IMG/VR virus record: IMGVR_UViG_3300033146_004758
Span: 1-24,534 of that record
Direction: 5' to 3' (one strand)
From: a virus
Length of the DNA: 24,534 bases
This document shows, one piece after another, positions 6,735 through 21,818 of the stretch (the first letter of the stretch is position 1; each line of letters starts with the position of its first letter). The notes beneath the pieces are model-generated. The model was given only the letters and a program-made list of their open reading frames with translations. It had not been told where the DNA came from and searched no databases. Both the position numbers and the translations under genes were made by a program.

Positions 6735-8249
6735 ATGAAAAGAAGTGATAAAATAGCGATTGAACGGTATAAAAAGAAACTGCAGCTTGCAAGGAGTAGT
6801 GGTTCTGTTAATGCCTTTGAAACTCAAGCCGAAAAAGATAAACGCATTGAACGTGCTAAAAAAGATTGGCGGTTTATGGTGGAATATTACTTCCCACATT
6901 ATGCAACTTCACCAAGTGCTGATTTTCAAATTCAATTTGCTAAATTGGTTGAAAAAGATTTAACTTTTAAAGGTTTTGCAGAATGGGGGCGAGCACAGGC
7001 TAAATCAGTTTGGAATGATGTAATTATTCCTTTTGGATTATGGATTAGAGATGAACCTGTATATTTAGTATTGATTGGTAACTCTAATAAAAGAGCTAAA
7101 CAATTATTAGAAGATGTAATGGCAGAGTTTGAGGCAAACCCAAGAATTATTGCAGATTTTGGTGAACAACAAAATTTAGGCTCTTGGGAAGATGGATTTT
7201 TTGTTACTAAAGGCGGTTTTATTGGTCAGGCTCTTGGAACTGGTCAATCGGTTAGGGGTTTGCGTGTTGGTTCAAGGAGACCTACGCATATTGTAGCGGA
7301 TGATATTGAAATAAAAGACACCGTTAAAAATCCTAAACGCCAAAATGAAATTGTAAAATGGGTTGAGCAGGACTTATTAGCAACAATGGATGGAAGTATT
7401 AGACGCTTTATTCAAGCGAATAATAGAGCCTATCCACAAATGATACAAACTATATTGCAAGAACGCCATCCAAGTTGGAAGGTACATCATGTTAAAGCTT
7501 ATGATCCTGTAACCTATAAGCCAGCTTGGTATCAAAAATACGATGATACCTATTTTAAAGAAATGGAACATGAAATGGGAAGATTGGCAGCACTTGCCGA
7601 GTTTAACAATGAGCCACATACCGAAGGATCAATCTTTACGGAAGATATGATTCAATGGCGTGATATTCCAAAATTAAACAACTTTAAAATAATTATAGGC
7701 TTTTGGGATGTCGCCTATGCGGGAACTAAAACAGCCGATTATAATGCTGTTAAAGTTTGGGGCTTATATGGAACTGATTTTATAAATATTGACAGTTTTG
7801 TAAAACAAAGCAAAATGAGAGCAGCCATAACTTGGATGTGTCAATTTCAAATTGAGTTACCAGAAACTGTTATTGTGCATTGGCGTTTTGAGGCGCAGTT
7901 TTGGAACGATGAAGTCGAGCGAACAATTTACGAAGTAGAGCAGCAATTTATGATTAAATTAAATATCGTAAAAGTTGATACGCCAAAGGTTAAAAAATAC
8001 GATAGAATTTTAAGGCTACATCCTTATTATCAAAATGGACGTATTTATTATAACGCTAAAAAGAAGGCACACAATGATACTTTAGTGGGCATTAATCAAC
8101 TTTTCGGAATTGAACCAGGATACAGAACTCACGATGATGCACCAGATGCCGATGAGCAGGCAATAACCGAATTATCAAAATACATATACAGCTCTCGTGG
8201 AGCAACCAAACCAATTACAGGGAGATATAAACGTAAACAAAGATTTTAA
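6735..8249 (+). CDS. Terminase large subunit (Mu gp28-like packaging ATPase/nuclease)
   Basis: The 504-residue protein is the motor that pumps DNA into proheads and cuts it. The N-terminal ATPase has a degenerate Walker A-like stretch GRAQAKSV at 85-92 and a Walker B segment HIVADDIE at 185-192. The C-terminal RNase H-like nuclease domain starts with GFWDVAYAGTKTADYNAVKV (Asp325 candidate metal ligand), continues through FEAQFWN (Glu386) and ends with HDDAPDADEQAI (Asp468/471), the usual acidic 'DD.PDA' ending of phage terminases. Length fits Mu-type large terminases. It lies between the small subunit and gp36/portal genes, with gaps of only 3-10 bases. For a transposable phage, host-flanking DNA is expected to be cut in headful packaging. 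Confidence 0.9.
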   Translation: MKRSDKIAIERYKKKLQLARSSGSVNAFETQAEKDKRIERAKKDWRFMVEYYFPHYATSPSADFQIQFAKLVEKDLTFKGFAEWGRAQAKSVWNDVIIPFGLWIRDEPVYLVLIGNSNKRAKQLLEDVMAEFEANPRIIADFGEQQNLGSWEDGFFVTKGGFIGQALGTGQSVRGLRVGSRRPTHIVADDIEIKDTVKNPKRQNEIVKWVEQDLLATMDGSIRRFIQANNRAYPQMIQTILQERHPSWKVHHVKAYDPVTYKPAWYQKYDDTYFKEMEHEMGRLAALAEFNNEPHTEGSIFTEDMIQWRDIPKLNNFKIIIGFWDVAYAGTKTADYNAVKVWGLYGTDFINIDSFVKQSKMRAAITWMCQFQIELPETVIVHWRFEAQFWNDEVERTIYEVEQQFMIKLNIVKVDTPKVKKYDRILRLHPYYQNGRIYYNAKKKAHNDTLVGINQLFGIEPGYRTHDDAPDADEQAITELSKYIYSSRGATKPITGRYKRKQRF

Positions 8250-8252
8250 ACT

Positions 8253-8684
8253 ATGGCATATCAATTTTTAACAAGTACCGATTTAAATACACGAGTTTTT
8301 GATACTTACATTAATAAATCTAATGATGTAAATACTGCTGTGGTTTTGGAAGGTATCGAAAAGCAAAACATTGCATTAATAAAATCTAAACTTTCTGGCA
8401 GATATGATACAACTGCTATTTTCACAGCTACAGAAGAGAATAGGCACTATTTGATTGTTAAAATATTAGTGGTCCTGGTAGTGTATGACTTTATTCGCAG
8501 AAATGCGGCAAGAAAAGTACCAACCGATTATGTCAAAGATTGGGAAACTGCTATGAAAACTTTAGAGAGTATTAAGGCAGGTAAAGAAACACCTGAAGGC
8601 TTACCAAAACCAACAGATTTAAGTGGTAATGTAGTAAGCCCAATTATTAGTGGTAACAATAAAAATAAAGATTTTTATATATAA
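8253..8684 (+). CDS. Mu gp36-like protein (DUF1320)
   Basis: The 143-residue protein resembles the DUF1320/gp36 family found next to portal and terminase genes in Mu-like phages: a short start (MAYQFLTSTDLNTRVFDTYI), helical pairs in the middle (SKLSGRYDTTAIF, then a hydrophobic VKILVVLVVYDFIRRNAARK helix) and a segment VPTDYVKDWETAMKTLESIKAG. The 'L..RYD....F' and 'D.I.R.AARK.P.DYV.DWE.A...L..I..G' pattern is what I used. It likely acts as a head-completion or connector protein below the portal. It starts three bases after the terminase stop and ends three bases before the portal start. The last 30 residues are low-complexity. Confidence 0.7.
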   Translation: MAYQFLTSTDLNTRVFDTYINKSNDVNTAVVLEGIEKQNIALIKSKLSGRYDTTAIFTATEENRHYLIVKILVVLVVYDFIRRNAARKVPTDYVKDWETAMKTLESIKAGKETPEGLPKPTDLSGNVVSPIISGNNKNKDFYI

Positions 8685-8687
8685 ATT

Positions 8688-9953
8688 ATGACAAAGAGCT
8701 TAAAAGAAAAAATTGAAGATAAGATTTTATCATATATTCCAGATGGACGTATTAGAGTTGAGGCTGCAATTAGAACTGAAAAGAAAAACAAGTCGCTTAG
8801 TGGTGGAGTAAAACACCAAAGCACTTTATTTCAACCTAAGACTTTAAAAGATTGGAAAGATGCTGTGGCTCTTGCTACGGATAATGAAAATCCCGACTTT
8901 CTATTTTTAGCAGAATTGTACGAAAACTTATTATTAGATGCACATACAGTATCTGTAATTGAAAGTAGAATTTTTAGAGTACTTAGATCTAAATTTGTTT
9001 TATTAAAAGAAAATGGTGATGAAGACCCAGAGCTTAAAAAATTATTCGAAACGCCATGGTTTGAAGAATTTTTAAAACAAGCTTTATTATCTAAATTTAC
9101 TGGTGTAAAAGTTTTAGAATTGTTTGATTTAGACGAAAACTTAGAGCTTGAAAAGTCAACATTAATTCCAATGGCTCACACCAAACCCGCAAAAGGTATC
9201 ATTCTAAAAAATGCAGGTGATGATAAAGGTTGGGATTATAAAGAAGGGCTTTTTGCTAAATACTACATACAAGTTGGTAATGATAATGAGTTAGGAATGT
9301 TAAGCGATTTAGCTCCTTTAATTTTAGCTAAAAAGCTAAGTATGGGTTCTTGGTTAGATTGGATTGAAAAGTATGGTATTGCAATGCGTTACGCCATAAC
9401 TGATAATATGACTGATGAGAGACAAAAGGAACTGTTTGATATGTTGATGGATTCAATAAGCAATCAAGTTGCCGTTTTAAAAGGTCAAGAGCAGATTGTT
9501 ATTGCAGATACGCCAAGTACTGACACTTACAAAGTATTTTTAGAGTTTTTAAAGTATTTGGATAGTAGTATTTCAAAAAGGGTTTTAGGACAAACAATGA
9601 CTACTGAAAATGGAAGCTCTCGTTCTCAAGCTGAAGTTCACGAAAAAGTAGCAAACGATAGACACGAAAGTGATAAGTTATTTGCGCAATACATTATTAA
9701 TAAACAATTAATACCTAAATTAATTGAACTAAGTAGCTTTTATAGTGGCTTAAATGGAATTACTTTTGATTGGGACAAAAGCGAACAAATGGACGCAGAA
9801 ACCTTTATTGATAAAGCAGTTTCTTTAGCTCAAGCTGGATTTGTTTTAGACCATGAGGCAATTGCAGAAAAAACAGGAATGCCAGTTATTGGTTATAACG
9901 AAAAAAGCCAAGAGCCAACAAAAAAAGAGGAAGATCCTAAAAAAAAAAGCTAA
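8688..9953 (+). CDS. Portal protein (DUF935, Mu gp29-like)
   Basis: The 421-residue protein should form the dodecameric ring at the head vertex through which DNA passes. It shows DUF935 features: a segment AELYENLLLDAHTVSVIESR, then RIFRVLRSKF; a central GSWLDWIEKYGIAMRYAITD stretch; and the helix KYLDSSISKRVLGQTMTTEN with GSSRSQAEVHEKV near residues 285-325. The last 25 residues are Lys/Glu/Pro-rich and end in Lys codons on an uninterrupted run of ten A followed at once by TAA. That run is a plausible slippage site: a -1 shift would skip the stop and enter the MuF frame. Order terminase, gp36, portal, MuF matches other Bacteroidota Mu-like phages. Confidence 0.9.
   Translation: MTKSLKEKIEDKILSYIPDGRIRVEAAIRTEKKNKSLSGGVKHQSTLFQPKTLKDWKDAVALATDNENPDFLFLAELYENLLLDAHTVSVIESRIFRVLRSKFVLLKENGDEDPELKKLFETPWFEEFLKQALLSKFTGVKVLELFDLDENLELEKSTLIPMAHTKPAKGIILKNAGDDKGWDYKEGLFAKYYIQVGNDNELGMLSDLAPLILAKKLSMGSWLDWIEKYGIAMRYAITDNMTDERQKELFDMLMDSISNQVAVLKGQEQIVIADTPSTDTYKVFLEFLKYLDSSISKRVLGQTMTTENGSSRSQAEVHEKVANDRHESDKLFAQYIINKQLIPKLIELSSFYSGLNGITFDWDKSEQMDAETFIDKAVSLAQAGFVLDHEAIAEKTGMPVIGYNEKSQEPTKKEEDPKKKS
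9939..9948 (+). other. A10 slippery run at the end of the portal gene
   Basis: Ten consecutive A bases encode the last Lys codons of the portal gene, three bases before its TAA. The MuF frame is -1 relative to the portal. It is closed by a TAA at 9938-9940 just before the run, and open from 9941 onward with no ATG until a GTG at 9995. One extra A in the mRNA, or a -1 ribosomal shift on A AAA AAA, would fuse portal and MuF. Confidence 0.5.
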
Positions 9954-12732: not shown

Positions 12733-12755
12733 GATGAAATTTTATGGTATATTTG
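12725..12755 (+). promoter_or_regulatory. Bacteroidota promoter for a short rightward transcript
   Basis: TTG (12725-12727), 20 bases, then TATATTTG (12748-12755) is a perfect match. The predicted RNA starts near 12762 and meets a strong hairpin with a U-run ending near 12877, so the transcript would be about 115 bases with only a 13-codon frame. The core elements overlap the divergent promoter back to back. Confidence 0.6.
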
Positions 12756-12777
12756 GGTTCACTTAAACCAAATTATT

Positions 12778-12819
12778 ATGAAAAAAGTTGTTAAAATTAT
12801 TTTAAATGGTTTTTCTTAA
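12778..12819 (+). CDS. 13-residue peptide or remnant gene start (MKKVVKIILNGFS)
   Basis: An ATG about 15 bases after the predicted RNA start opens a frame of 13 residues, MKKVVKIILNGFS, ending in TAA. Spacing from promoter to ATG is like a normal Bacteroidota gene. It may be a leader peptide, a small membrane-active peptide, or the surviving 5' end of a gene cut when the neighbouring cassette arrived. Nothing distinguishes these, and chance is possible. Confidence 0.25.
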   Translation: MKKVVKIILNGFS

Positions 12820-12835
12820 AAAAAATCGAACTAAT

Positions 12836-12885
12836 CACAACAGTCAATAAGCGGCATTAAAACGACCGCTTATTTTTATGTTGTG
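12836..12885 (-). repeat. attC-like structured element E2 (also rightward intrinsic terminator)
   Basis: Core 12837-12884 is 48 bases. Read on the minus strand it runs ACAAC, spacer, AATAAGCGG, loop TCGTTTTAATG, CCGCTTATT, spacer, GTTGT; the outer ACAAC/GTTGT arms pair (extended to CACAACA/TGTTGTG). It aligns without gaps to E1 (13195-13242): ends and the CGTTTTAATG loop are conserved, while the stem changes on both sides. On the plus strand the nine-pair stem followed by TTTTT is a good intrinsic terminator for the short rightward transcript. Confidence 0.6.
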
Positions 12886-12892
12886 CATAATA

Positions 12893-13150
12893 CTACTCAC
12901 CACCCCAATGAGAAGTTTTTATATCACACACATTTCTTGGTGCATACCCAACCCATTCAGCACCATCATATACCACTGGGAAGTAAACATACTTTTCACC
13001 CCAAGAAGTGAAATGTGTTCCCTCGCTACCACCATATCCATCATCAAACTCTTTTACAAGTTCTTCATCTGTTAAGGTTGTTTTCATTTCTTCAAAGTCA
13101 TCACCTGTTTCCTTAAAAACTTCGATTAACATTTCTTTCCAATTTGCCAT
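12893..13150 (-). CDS. 85-residue cassette protein, conserved small protein of unknown function
   Basis: The product begins MANWKEMLIEVFKETGDDFE and carries an acidic stretch DEELVKEFDDGYGGSEGTHF, then an aromatic-rich core TSWGEKYVYFPVVYDGAEWV, and ends SHWGGE. The 'F..GYGG.EG..FT.W.E.YVYFPVVYDG.EWV...PRN' pattern is one I recall from a widespread small-protein family (possibly the one called DUF7675; from memory), with no known function. It is the only gene between the two 48-base attC-like elements, with the element E2 starting just after its stop, exactly as a gene cassette is arranged. No promoter of its own is evident; read-through from the early operon would be needed. Confidence 0.7.
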   Translation of the reverse strand: MANWKEMLIEVFKETGDDFEEMKTTLTDEELVKEFDDGYGGSEGTHFTSWGEKYVYFPVVYDGAEWVGYAPRNVCDIKTSHWGGE

Positions 13151-13194
13151 AATTCTATTTATTTAAGTTATTATTATTTAATTCCGTACTATGC

Positions 13195-13242
13195 ACAACA
13201 CCACCTATACACCATTAAAACGGTGCATAGCCAAACCGTTGT
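13195..13242 (-). repeat. attC-like structured element E1
   Basis: Read on the minus strand: ACAAC, GGTTTGG, stem CTATGCACC, loop GTTTTAAT, stem GGTGTATAG (one G-U pair), GTG, GTTGT. The outer ACAAC/GTTGT arms pair. Like E2 it is 48 bases, in the same orientation, and begins just after a gene's stop (13245). A second possible pairing exists: CTATGCAC at 13189-13196 (plus) with GTGCATAG at 13223-13230. Downstream flanks of both elements also share TAGT.CG. Confidence 0.6.
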
Positions 13243-13244
13243 AA

Positions 13245-13478
13245 TTAATTCATTTTATAAAAGTAAAAAGATTGTTTTTCTTCATCAAACAGCTTAGAGC
13301 GTTTCACAACTCCATCATAATCCATGTAGTCAGCTGTTCCTCTAGTTAAATATACCTTTCGGTAATTCAAATCAAATTTTATTTTAGCCATTCTAAAAAC
13401 GCTAATCATTTGATCTGGTGTGTAACCTTCAGCTTGAAGCTCTTTTATAAATTTATCTACTAATTGTTCTGTGGTCAT
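13245..13478 (-). CDS. Small helical protein, unknown
   Basis: The 77-residue product begins MTTEQLVDKFIKELQAEGYT and then PDQMISVFRMAKIKFDLNYR, two amphipathic helices, followed by a more polar end with a YMDYDGVVKRSKLF strand. The family is not recognised. It shares its opening (MTTE.L.DK) with the next upstream gene at 13484-13654, suggesting either a common start context or an old duplication of the 5' end. Its stop is two bases before element E1, so it could be the gene of a second cassette, or simply the last ordinary gene before the cassette. It is transcribed with the early operon. Confidence 0.6.
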   Translation of the reverse strand: MTTEQLVDKFIKELQAEGYTPDQMISVFRMAKIKFDLNYRKVYLTRGTADYMDYDGVVKRSKLFDEEKQSFYFYKMN

Positions 13479-13483
13479 AATTA

Positions 13484-13654
13484 TTATTCTTTTAAGTATT
13501 TATTAATTGCCTCTAATTTTGTATCAGAAATTGTAGAGGAATGTCCATGAATGCAGTATCTAGTTTTACCTCTATTTTCTTTTTCATAAAAAGCAACATT
13601 CCATTTCTCTGCTAATTGTTCTGCTTTTTTATCTGCTAATTCTTCTGTGGTCAT
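13484..13654 (-). CDS. 56-residue small protein, unknown
   Basis: A complete short frame from ATG 13652-13654 to TAA 13484-13486. It reads MTTEELADKKAEQLAEKWNV, then AFYEKENRGKTRYCIHGHSS, ending in NKYLKE. The start is one base after the end of the ASCH-like gene, and the next gene begins five bases after its stop, so tight packing supports it. The CIHGHS segment has Cys and two His, which could bind metal, but one cluster is not enough to infer this. No family is recognised. Confidence 0.6.
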   Translation of the reverse strand: MTTEELADKKAEQLAEKWNVAFYEKENRGKTRYCIHGHSSTISDTKLEAINKYLKE

Positions 13655-18287: not shown

Positions 18288-18911
18288 TTAATTGAAATTA
18301 CCCCAATACTCGTTTGCGCCTTTTTCCCAAATTGTATAAGGTGCTCCTCCACCAAATCGGCTCATGGCGTTTAATTTATATCCTTCAATAAATCCTTTAA
18401 TATCTGCATCATATCTAATGAATTTTGCTAATCTGCCTTCGGGTAGTTTTCCTTCAGCGTGCGAAATAAAAATGAAGAGCTTTTTTGGGAATTCAGATTT
18501 TAATTGTTTGTAGCTTTTTTTGTTTAAATCGGTATATTGAAGTGAATCAATAATTATGATGTCTGGACTTTTACGTCGGTTAAGTCTTTCTTTTAAATCT
18601 TCTATATCCTCACGGTCTAGAATTATAAATTTTTTCCCAACCTCTAACATATTTGTTTCTTTTATTGCTTTTTGCATGCTTAATCTTGCGCCCTCTTCTA
18701 ATGTATTATAGGCTACCTTTGTTTTGGTAAATCTTGTTAAGTATTTTGCTAGCTGTAAAAGAAACCGTGTCTTTCCATTTCCAGAGTGCCCCCAAAAAAT
18801 CCAAACGCCAGTCATTTCTGGTTTTCCAAAAGTGGCTAACCAAATACCTGTAAATAACATTATTTTGAATTTTCTTTTTAACATTTCTGTTACTGATACG
18901 GCTCTACCCAT
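18288..18911 (-). CDS. RecA-like P-loop ATPase, second ATPase after MuB
   Basis: The 207-residue protein has Walker A GHSGNGKT at 41-48, preceded by strand TGVWIFW, and Walker B DIIIIDS at 117-123. A later ISHAEGKLPEGR segment (149-160) fits the sensor strand and a loop of the RecA/RadA/KaiC group, with conserved-looking RFGGGAPYTIWEKG near the end. It may be a DNA-remodelling ATPase or a short DnaB/RadA-like helper used when phage DNA replicates by transposition. Mu itself has no such gene beside B, though similar small ATPases occur in Bacteroidota Mu-like phages as I recall. Its ATG overlaps the stop of MuB (position 18911), suggesting fixed ratios between the two. Confidence 0.75.
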   Translation of the reverse strand: MGRAVSVTEMLKRKFKIMLFTGIWLATFGKPEMTGVWIFWGHSGNGKTRFLLQLAKYLTRFTKTKVAYNTLEEGARLSMQKAIKETNMLEVGKKFIILDREDIEDLKERLNRRKSPDIIIIDSLQYTDLNKKSYKQLKSEFPKKLFIFISHAEGKLPEGRLAKFIRYDADIKGFIEGYKLNAMSRFGGGAPYTIWEKGANEYWGNFN

Positions 18912-19783
18912 TATCCTAATAATTGTTGTTTTTCAATTTCGGTTCTTACTTTACGTAATGAGCCTAATGTTTTGGCATACATTTTTAAAGCGGTTATTTT
19001 AGATTTATTTGCTTGAGATACTAAGGCTACCTGTTGTAGTCTAAACTCTTTTAAGGCGTCATTACCGTCTGGAGTAATCTTATTGTATTTATTACCATAG
19101 CGGTCAAATATTTCTGTATAACCTACTTTTTTAAGGTCTTTTTGGCGGGTTATTTTTTGCTTTAAGCCATCAGCGCCCATCATATACCAACCACACACAT
19201 ATTCTGTGGCGTTCCAAAGCGCTTTGAGTTCTAGAAAGGCAGCATAATCTAAATCACCTGCCTCGTCTAAAACTACAAGGGGATTTTTAATCGTTTTTAT
19301 GTAGAAAACCAAATCTTCATAAATATCAGCGTAACGTCCAGTATAATCAACTCCAAATTCACGAGCAATTTTTCTAATCAATTTTTGTTTTGATTTTACT
19401 TGAGAACAGTCTATATAAACCGCATTAGCATTTTGTTGAACATAGTACTTTGCAGCTGTTGTTTTACCAATTCCTGCTATATCACAAAATATTGCAGAAA
19501 GTGATCTATTTTGACACGCATCAAGTTGTGCTGTTATATAGTTAAATGTTTCTGTTTTTACTATTTCCCATTTTCTACCATCGCTCAGTTTTACATCTAA
19601 AATTCTTGCAAGTGATATCCATTTTGCATCAGATATAACTCGATCAAGTTCTCCTTTATTAATTCTAGAATACTGTGCAGTATTAATTCCCAGTTTACGA
19701 GCGTGTTTGGCATCACTAGTAAAATTTAATCTATCTACTTTGATAGCTTCAATAATGCGTAATTTGTGGTCTGTTGTTATCAT
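18911..19783 (-). CDS. MuB-like transposition target-DNA activator ATPase
   Basis: The 290-residue protein is an AAA+ ATPase with an N-terminal helix-turn-helix, as in MuB. The HTH is at about 24-62 (ARKLGINTAQYSRINKGELD). Walker A is CDIAGIGKTTAA (100-111, AxxGxGKT), Walker B is LVVLDEAGDL (169-178), and a sensor-like WYMMGADGL lies near 199-207. MuB binds target DNA as ATP-dependent filaments, delivers it to the transposase and protects the phage from self-insertion. The gene follows the transposase by 22 bases and overlaps the next ATPase by one base. MuB is 312 residues, so length fits. Similar DNA transposition proteins (AAA_22) are the alternative name. Confidence 0.85.
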   Translation of the reverse strand: MITTDHKLRIIEAIKVDRLNFTSDAKHARKLGINTAQYSRINKGELDRVISDAKWISLARILDVKLSDGRKWEIVKTETFNYITAQLDACQNRSLSAIFCDIAGIGKTTAAKYYVQQNANAVYIDCSQVKSKQKLIRKIAREFGVDYTGRYADIYEDLVFYIKTIKNPLVVLDEAGDLDYAAFLELKALWNATEYVCGWYMMGADGLKQKITRQKDLKKVGYTEIFDRYGNKYNKITPDGNDALKEFRLQQVALVSQANKSKITALKMYAKTLGSLRKVRTEIEKQQLLG

Positions 19784-19805: not shown

Positions 19806-21818
19806 TTATAAATCGCTAATTGCTAAATTTCGTTGTGCTTCTGTATCCACTTCGTCCATTTCAAAGGCTTGCTCTGGAGTAATAGGTGTAACAATCTCTG
19901 GGGTTATATCAATCGTTTTTGTAGGCTTTTTTAGAATGGTAACTTTTGAAAGTTTATTATCATCTTTGACCATTTTATCAAATTCGCTTATATACTTCAT
20001 AGCCTCAGTATATCCTTGTTTGTCTTGGTCTGTCCATTCAGCTTTTGCTCTATTGAATGTTGGTACAGGTTTACATTCACTAATTAATTGCCCGTTTTGG
20101 TATATAAATACCTCTTCTATTTTATTATTGCTATTTGGAATATAGTAGGCATCTACATTATAGTTGTTTGCAGATAGCTTAGTTAATATTTCTGGCGATG
20201 ATAATTGATATTTTTCATATTGAACTACTACATATTGTGAACGTCTAATTGATGTTTTTACATGTACACCAATATATTTTGCTAATAAGGCTTTATTATA
20301 TTGTGGTAAGTCTGGATTTACATTATTAATCAATACATCTAATCTAGTCATATCCTTATATCGTTTTTGGTTTGGATGTAATTGATTATTGTATTCTATT
20401 TGTTCCTGTAACTCATTAGCAACAATTATTTCATAGTCTGCGGTTGCCGTTTTATAATTATCATTTTCAGCATCAAATATTTTTTGATTAATAACTCTAT
20501 TACTATCAAGTCTCGAGTAGTGACGACCTACATTTTGATTATTACTTTTTTCAACGCCGTATTTCTTTGCCCCAATTAATCGCTCTGCATATTTCTCTTG
20601 AGAGTTTTGAGGATTACACCATCTAACAAAAGGAAATACATTTCCCATTTTCATTAAGCCATCTTTAAAATCTGAAACTAAGTGGTTTTCTACCTCCATT
20701 TCCATTGGTACTCCAATTCCTAAACTAGAAGTAAACTGGAACATGTTACGAATACAGTCTAAATACAGTTTATCATCTTTTGATTTAGAGTGTGAAATTC
20801 CTATCATTGCACCAGAGGCATCATCAAAAGCATAATACGCCATCACTTTTTGTCCATTTGGTAATTTTGTGTGCATAATATCCCTATCATCCAAAGTTAT
20901 TTTACTCATGGAGAATATAGGAGCAGTTCTATTAACATGAGGCCTTACTTTTAGGCTAAAGTCATGGTTTCCATTTCTAGCTTTTTTAATTATTAATTCA
21001 TTACGTGGGTCACGTAAATAGTTCCAAACGGTTGCATCTGAAATTACTACAGGCATTCCATCATTATAAAAATCCTCTCGGTTAAATAGTTCACCTGTTT
21101 TGATATCAACTACTTCAATTGCGCCTCCTAAAAATTGCAAATACATATCATGTACCGATGACGAATAAGGTTTATTTGGTAGGCAGTATAGGCTAATAAT
21201 TAAATTTTCTATCTTAGCAGTAACCTTTCTTGAATTATCGTTTAAATAGCCTTTATGTATTAAATCAACATATCCATTTTTAATATATGAGTTATATTTT
21301 CTTTTTAGTCTACGTTCATTAGTAGGTAATGAGTGTGGATGTCTATCAGTATCAATACTATTAACCGAAGTACTTATTTTTGTCCACAGTCCTTTTGTTG
21401 AGCCTCCTAAAGACCTTCTTTTTGATTTTATTGAAGATAATATAGTATGAATTGCGTTTAAAACTTCCGCATTGGCTCTATATTCACGTTGTTTCTTTGT
21501 TGGCAAGTTTCTGCCATCGGCTAAAGAATAGTTTGAATAAAAAGTTGATGCAGTTCCATCTAAAACTATTTTATCTGAAAATAAATTTTGTTTAACTACT
21601 TTATAAGGATCTCCAAAATTCTGAACAATTTGTTCTTTTATCCACATTTTTAAAGTATCAAACTCAACCAATGCAGGTGTTCCCTTACAGCCTCTTCGGA
21701 TAACATTAATAAAGCCACGCTTTTTTAATGCATCATAATTAAATTTACTTAGAATTCCAGATTGTTGGTATAACCAACCTCCTTGAACACATACTATATT
21801 ATTATACTCTTCAAACAT
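19806..21818 (-). CDS. MuA-like DDE transposase
   Basis: The 670-residue protein catalyses strand transfer and replicative transposition of the phage. The N terminus (about 1-75) holds a winged-helix-like DNA-binding segment; residues about 100-230 are basic and helical, suiting end-binding domains. The RNase H-like core begins at KITLDDRDIMHTKLPNGQKV (Asp310 or 311 first acid; AYYAFDDASGAMIGIS on the next strand). The second acid position reads MEVENHLV with Glu377 where MuA has Asp336 (IDN). The third is Glu408 in CNPQNSQEKYAER. A beta-barrel/C-terminal region follows, with a disordered end likely to contact MuB. MuA is 663 residues, so length agrees. It follows the Ner-like gene by two bases. 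Confidence 0.9.
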   Translation of the reverse strand: MFEEYNNIVCVQGGWLYQQSGILSKFNYDALKKRGFINVIRRGCKGTPALVEFDTLKMWIKEQIVQNFGDPYKVVKQNLFSDKIVLDGTASTFYSNYSLADGRNLPTKKQREYRANAEVLNAIHTILSSIKSKRRSLGGSTKGLWTKISTSVNSIDTDRHPHSLPTNERRLKRKYNSYIKNGYVDLIHKGYLNDNSRKVTAKIENLIISLYCLPNKPYSSSVHDMYLQFLGGAIEVVDIKTGELFNREDFYNDGMPVVISDATVWNYLRDPRNELIIKKARNGNHDFSLKVRPHVNRTAPIFSMSKITLDDRDIMHTKLPNGQKVMAYYAFDDASGAMIGISHSKSKDDKLYLDCIRNMFQFTSSLGIGVPMEMEVENHLVSDFKDGLMKMGNVFPFVRWCNPQNSQEKYAERLIGAKKYGVEKSNNQNVGRHYSRLDSNRVINQKIFDAENDNYKTATADYEIIVANELQEQIEYNNQLHPNQKRYKDMTRLDVLINNVNPDLPQYNKALLAKYIGVHVKTSIRRSQYVVVQYEKYQLSSPEILTKLSANNYNVDAYYIPNSNNKIEEVFIYQNGQLISECKPVPTFNRAKAEWTDQDKQGYTEAMKYISEFDKMVKDDNKLSKVTILKKPTKTIDITPEIVTPITPEQAFEMDEVDTEAQRNLAISDL

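Follow-up and report, generated by a model that had tools for sequence, protein, structure and literature searches.

Is the 85-residue gene that sits between two structured 48-bp elements in this phage a mobile cassette of the integron type, and if so, how did it come to be inserted there? The window (the whole stretch of viral DNA analyzed here, 24,534 nucleotides) belongs to a phage that the first-pass annotation had called Mu-like, and it does contain a transposase, a transposition protein, a terminase, and a portal gene. Our main reading, to which we give a probability of roughly 0.87, is that the two elements are attC-type sites and that an integron-type cassette, delimited by their G|TT points, was inserted site-specifically into element 1. 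The features on which the analysis draws are as follows:

12827-12841, minus strand: arm 3' of the insertion, GTTGTGATTAGTTCG, pairing with the arm at 13238-13252
12837-12884, minus strand: element 2, attC-like, of the 85-aa cassette (fold z -5.2)
12841-13198, minus strand: inferred cassette unit, 358 bp, from the G|TT of one element to the G|TT of the other
12880-12893, minus strand: cassette tail, GTATTATGCACAAC, overlapping the stop codon of the 85-aa gene
12880-13200, minus strand: block shared with viral contig L286 (95% DNA identity), ending at the GTTGT and ACAAC cores
12893-13150, minus strand: cassette gene, 85 aa, function unknown (phrog_21631, E 2.5e-14)
13186-13199, minus strand: cassette head, GTTGTGCATAGTAC, pairing with the cassette tail
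13195-13242, minus strand: element 1, attC-like by sequence and fold, 3' of the 77-aa gene
13238-13252, minus strand: arm 5' of the insertion, TGAATTAATTACAAC, pairing with the arm at 12827-12841
13245-13478, minus strand: 77-aa gene preceding element 1, no family
18911-19783: DNA transposition protein, neighbor of the transposase (phrog_296)
19806-21818, minus strand: Mu-like transposase of the phage (phrog_310, E 1e-41)

Both elements are 48 bp long, have the same orientation, and lie directly behind the stop of a minus-strand gene, as had been proposed from the sequence. Element 1 reads, in order, ACAAC, spacer, stem, loop, stem, spacer, and GTTGT. The AAC...GTT core, mutually complementary ends, and a variable paired middle are all present in the window elements; their cores, GTTGTGC and GTTGTGA, do not satisfy the RYYYAAC/GTTRRRY consensus. 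Folded as single-stranded DNA and compared with shuffled sequence, 12837-12884 gives z scores of -5.2 and -4.6, and 13195-13242 gives -2.4 on the gene strand and only -1.5 on the other. Against R1, a covariance model of the wider site family, element 1 scores 71.2 bits (E 7.5e-15) as a seed member, while element 2 scores 56.1 bits (E 8e-11) from outside the seed. An Rfam scan of the elements returned no family, only chance matches, and a search for exact copies of the stem of element 2 found none.

The strongest sign of cassette insertion is one that the first-pass annotation did not include: outer arms that are complementary once they are swapped. Integrons are cut at G|TT, and we infer the same cut point for the window elements. 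Within each integrated element, the outer arms form only one pair beyond ACAAC/GTTGT. Across the unit, the cassette start GTTGTGCATAGTAC and the cassette end GTATTATGCACAAC form 9 contiguous pairs beyond the core, while the upstream ..TTAATTACAAC and downstream GTTGTGATTAG.. form 10 (G-U counted; 1 in the linear arrangement in each case). By chance, a run of at least nine pairs is expected at about 4e-4. This is the pattern predicted by a circular cassette inserting at G|TT, in which a perfect-arm junction, ..GCACAAC..GTTGTGCATAG.., would be expected. When the gene strands are rejoined, the circle folds at -19.6 and the empty site at -14.3 kcal/mol, compared with -13.0 and -8.7 before. The bracketed one-gene cassette thus stands with adjusted boundaries, running from G|TT to G|TT, an extent based on start and end arms that are complementary across 9 bp beyond the core. 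This supports element 2 traveling with the 85-aa gene and element 1 belonging to the 77-aa gene. In its inferred empty form, element 1 (window 12819-12841, minus strand) would fold into a long hairpin with a T run behind it; the site may thus originally have served as the operon's terminator as well.

The same rule holds beyond the window. Other phage cassettes contain the head as GTTGTNNNNAGTACGG. In 78 neighboring site pairs (Watson-Crick pairs only, cores reading GTT and AAC), the mean is 4.55 of 6 positions paired, compared with 2.65 (sd 0.12) in permutations, none of 20,000 reaching as high a value; 41 pairs are perfect at 6 of 6, and the viral and bacterial subsets each hold. Perfect pairing over 5 nt occurs in 33 of 93 neighboring pairs less than 3.5 kb apart versus 8/151 across one site (p 1.5e-9). 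Covariation between neighbors sets in with position 4 of GTTNNNNNN and tails off by position 10; this span, positions 4-10 of GTTNNNNNNN, agrees with an integron R box and with cutting at G|TT.

The cassette has a second copy in a different context. Viral contig L286 carries a homolog of the 85-aa gene (94% aa identity), and its flanks and stems differ from those of the window right up to the core. Junctions at GTTGT had been anticipated for related phages, and in L286, the one pair available, identity stops exactly at both cores. The sites, their covariation, the swapped-arm complementarity, and this second copy with the same ends are direct observations. They leave the earlier proposal of a captured mobile cassette well founded, while its suggested role in swapping cargo remains an inference only, in a window without its own integrase. 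The downstream site of the same cassette in L286 (4256-4290) has lost its hairpin (ACAACGTTGTTGT), which possibly freezes the cassette there. Other homologs of the 85-aa gene (47-76% identity) lack such sites, so this gene family also exists outside cassettes. The inner stem of element 1 recurs behind unrelated genes in five viral contigs (L309, L092, L310, L311, and L312, the last being the same contig as L042); in L309, the preceding gene is methyltransferase-like. No empty site was found; in L219, the nearest relative, other genes occupy the position. Between the late and early modules, window positions 12744-13654 are replaced by other genes (48 aa and 174 aa) in L219, which makes this a variable locus beyond the cassette itself. 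A search for relatives of the 77-aa gene found none.

These observations also bear on whether similar repeats let the block move by homologous recombination or phage mosaicism, with no site-specific enzyme and the sites as mere relics. The phage lacks the site-specific enzyme, and the same stem in other viral contigs would offer homology, both of which are compatible with such exchange. However, if whole sites were exchanged by homology, there would be no reason for precisely those bases that lie outside GTT to end up swapped into complementary sets, and the differences between L286 and the window extend through flanks and stems up to the core. We therefore regard this explanation as very unlikely.

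The elements belong to a wide family. The pattern ACAAC-N-CGTTTTAATG-N-GTTGT matched at least 120 stretches in viral sequences, and among the matches listed, true viral members are 44-51 nt long with a paired stem, the longer matches being mostly chance. In genome contigs, it matched 96 stretches, almost all from Bacteroidota. In an alignment of 20 members, 68 cells change on both sides, whereas shuffling gives 22 and sliding the partners gives no more than 14 (covariation 0.60 vs 0.15), so the compensatory stem change first noticed in the window is borne out among its relatives. Stem pairing played a part in the choice of seeds, which inflates the share of paired cells; unselected matches from the genome scan nearly all pair as well. 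Likewise, the pattern fixes the CGTTTTAATG loop and the ACAAC/GTTGT ends, which makes these invariant in the seed by construction, and both vary in R1 matches. R1 core variants include GTTAGGC, GTTATGC, and GTTGG, the loop is long in some R1 sites, whose matches reach 148 nt, and part of the sites have bulges (extrahelical bases) on no consistent side.

The R1 scan revealed arrays of same-direction sites, mostly 200-1500 bp apart, made of co-directional single-gene cassettes. Thus, the expectation of further copies flanking other genes was met many times over, by both pattern and covariance model searches. AttC-like sites were present in 27 of 120 genomes drawn evenly from one family (that of G017 and Tenacibaculum sp. 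SG-28). Terminase, portal, or tail genes occur on the array-bearing contigs L077, L078, and L119, and DNA methyltransferases are among the cassette products of L062 and L119. One Tenacibaculum array is interrupted by two copies of an ORF pair (L321:3942-5694 and 7912-9664), a short tyrosine-recombinase-like ORF plus a 382-aa ORF that is maybe a transposase.

R1 found no match in the cassettes of the class 1 integron plasmid R388 but recognized sites in Polaribacter phage P12002L (E 9e-7 to 5e-6), so the suggestion of a divergent class was right. The P12002L sites (L308, NC_028924) are as follows:

29997-30067: R1 site
30898-30966: R1 site
38024-38101: R1 site
38870-38947: weaker site (E 0.013)

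At least three, and probably four, sites surround the methyltransferase and Mom-like modification genes of P12002L. A blastn search against phage records returned nothing related. AttC sites and methyltransferase cassettes have been reported in this phage, where P12002L_attC2 was recombined with IntI1 and P12002L_attC1 had no verified junctions (Qi 2023, PMC9892861); we did not match P12002L_attC2 to particular R1 coordinates. The window cassette resembles the integron cassettes and CALINs described in phages (Qi et al. 2023, PMC9892861) in having one gene per unit with a hairpin behind each, an AAC...GTT core, complementary unit start and end, and co-directional arrays, and its relatives include P12002L, the source of one attC recombined by IntI1. 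In contrast to integron cassettes, the core is mostly GTTGTNNNN rather than GTTRRRY, and the CGTTTTAATG loop strand is conserved. It also differs from known cassettes in residing in a Mu-like phage and in the polarity of gene versus site, which is reversed in phages relative to bacteria: of the viral sites, 38 have both neighboring genes running along the CGTTTTAATG top strand and 6 have both running against it, compared with 2 and 69 of the bacterial sites (Fisher p 1e-21). These counts indicate that the site itself is shared and that the gene is turned around in phage cassettes. The viral exceptions L020, L059, and L118 have the look of bacterial-type arrays.

Could the elements instead be RNA hairpins, terminators or mRNA stabilizers behind genes, with the cassette appearance accidental? 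They follow stop codons and fold stably, a T run (GATTTTTTTT) lies 3' of element 2, and T-rich DNA often follows the bacterial elements in the loop-strand orientation. A terminator scan called neither window element, however, and an RNA function leaves unexplained why the start of a unit pairs with its end across 200-1500 bp, why the identity of two copies stops at the cores, and why recombinase genes are linked to the sites. We find this very improbable as the whole explanation; a second role of the elements as terminators is not excluded.

Which enzyme inserted the cassette is less certain. Among the window ORFs, we saw no integron integrase or recombinase of the array-linked family, although the contig may be a fragment. 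None of 49 site-bearing genomes and records has an IntI above the curated cut-off of TIGR02249, a profile that gave 507 bits with the IntI1 control. As TIGR02249 also matches Xer genes in all 14 controls, only stronger matches were used. Of these stronger IntI-like genes, 8 of 29 have a site within 10 kb, versus 0 of 28 Xer-like controls; among the 9 loci with a distance of up to 16 kb, 8 have the site 3' of the gene and on the opposite strand. In an independent test of eleven genomes, selected from the 27 of 120 for carrying sites, the top matches lie within 16 kb of a site in 7/10 cases versus 0/21 for weaker ones. Side and strand were predicted beforehand: clusters G072, G079, and G151 fit, G081 fits at 15 kb, and G129:C14 and G080:C25 also fit, while G055:C7 shows the opposite arrangement. 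The predicted recombinase is absent from contig G080:C46, and none was found at G084:C292, where the cluster starts at the contig end. With a tyrosine recombinase repeatedly beside the arrays, with cross-unit arm complementarity and an attI-like site that fit integrons and not IS200/IS605 ends, and with no such gene noted beside examined arrays (no profile search), we see hardly any room for a unit moved by a hairpin-recognizing single-strand transposase (IS200/IS605 TnpA or REP-associated RAYT), even though these enzymes also recognize imperfect ssDNA hairpins.

The array-linked enzymes keep the IntI1 catalytic residues R, K, H, R, H, and Y in alignment and are 31-33% identical to IntI1 (28-29% for the phage ones). 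They fall below the TIGR02249 cut-off (142-206 bits, cut-off 265), and about 40 residues are missing from their IntI-specific region, a domain that has been considered a defining, necessary feature of IntI (PMC9668308, citing Messier and Roy 2001). Their best NCBIfam match is NF040815, of XerA/XerC/XerD type (178-231 bits, cut-off 220); unlike the ordinary Xer-like genes of the same genomes, they adjoin cassette arrays. Recombination in Bacteroidota and the role of these enzymes are inferred, not demonstrated.

At most bacterial loci, the recombinase stop is directly followed by a short inverted repeat, behind which comes a GTT head. In 9 of 12 loci, the first cassette ends with the reverse complement of the head (9-10 nt) at an attC-like structure, compared with 2.7% matches for shuffled heads. 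The order differs in phage contigs L119, L302, and L303, where the cassettes come first and end directly at the recombinase gene:

L302, 5380-7807: phage cassettes
L119, 3338-8021: phage cassettes
L303, 1977-3044: phage cassettes

Just before the recombinase start codon (ATG), these three contigs have a YAAC-TAYTATATATA-like motif that, as sequence, looks like a phage attI. Comparing the phage recombinase loci for an attI-like site gives a clear result for L302 (9/9) and L303 (9), whose last cassettes have heads and tails that match at 9 nt; for L119 (8) and L304 (7) the result is weak, for L306 it is ambiguous (the match lies inside an ORF), and for L301 there is none. The phage attI-like evidence is weaker than the bacterial.

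Altogether, the window segment is an attC-bounded, integrase-less cassette; it behaves as integron cassettes do and is in all likelihood one of them, its inserting enzyme unproved. In the proposed sequence of events, element 1 would already have stood behind the phage's 77-aa gene before the insertion; a tyrosine recombinase would then act on the circular cassette, folding a single strand of its site and joining this strand to element 1 at G|TT. Because the window phage encodes none, this enzyme would come from the host or a co-infecting phage, and would most likely be an XerA/IntI-like recombinase of the kind found beside Bacteroidota arrays. The benefit may be the exchange of small accessory genes at the operon end.

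Like complete integrons (IntI, TIGR02249), the bacterial arrays have a recombinase, an attI-like site directly after it, and complementary cassette heads and tails; in archaeal integrons, attI is also immediately downstream of intI (PMC9668308). We lean slightly toward a broader view, in which a separate integron class operates in Flavobacteriaceae and their phages, with an XerA-like integrase that lacks the IntI-specific domain. The bacterial form would be ordered integrase-attI-array and the phage form (L119, L302, and probably L303) array-attI-integrase, with genes reversed relative to the sites, and the window cassette would belong to the phage pool. IntegronFinder 2.0 reported complete Bacteroidetes integrons only in Salinibacter ruber, beyond integrase-only elements (PMC9024848), and our literature search, which excluded preprints and most subscription papers, found no published description of this Bacteroidota class. 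An integron-like system is common to marine Bacteroidota and their phages and has been little noticed. If it is functional, the IntI-specific domain would be dispensable for cassette recombination, the search profile would be the reason why a major marine phylum has been taken to be almost without integrons, and phages, with an integrase of their own, would constitute a second pool of cassettes.
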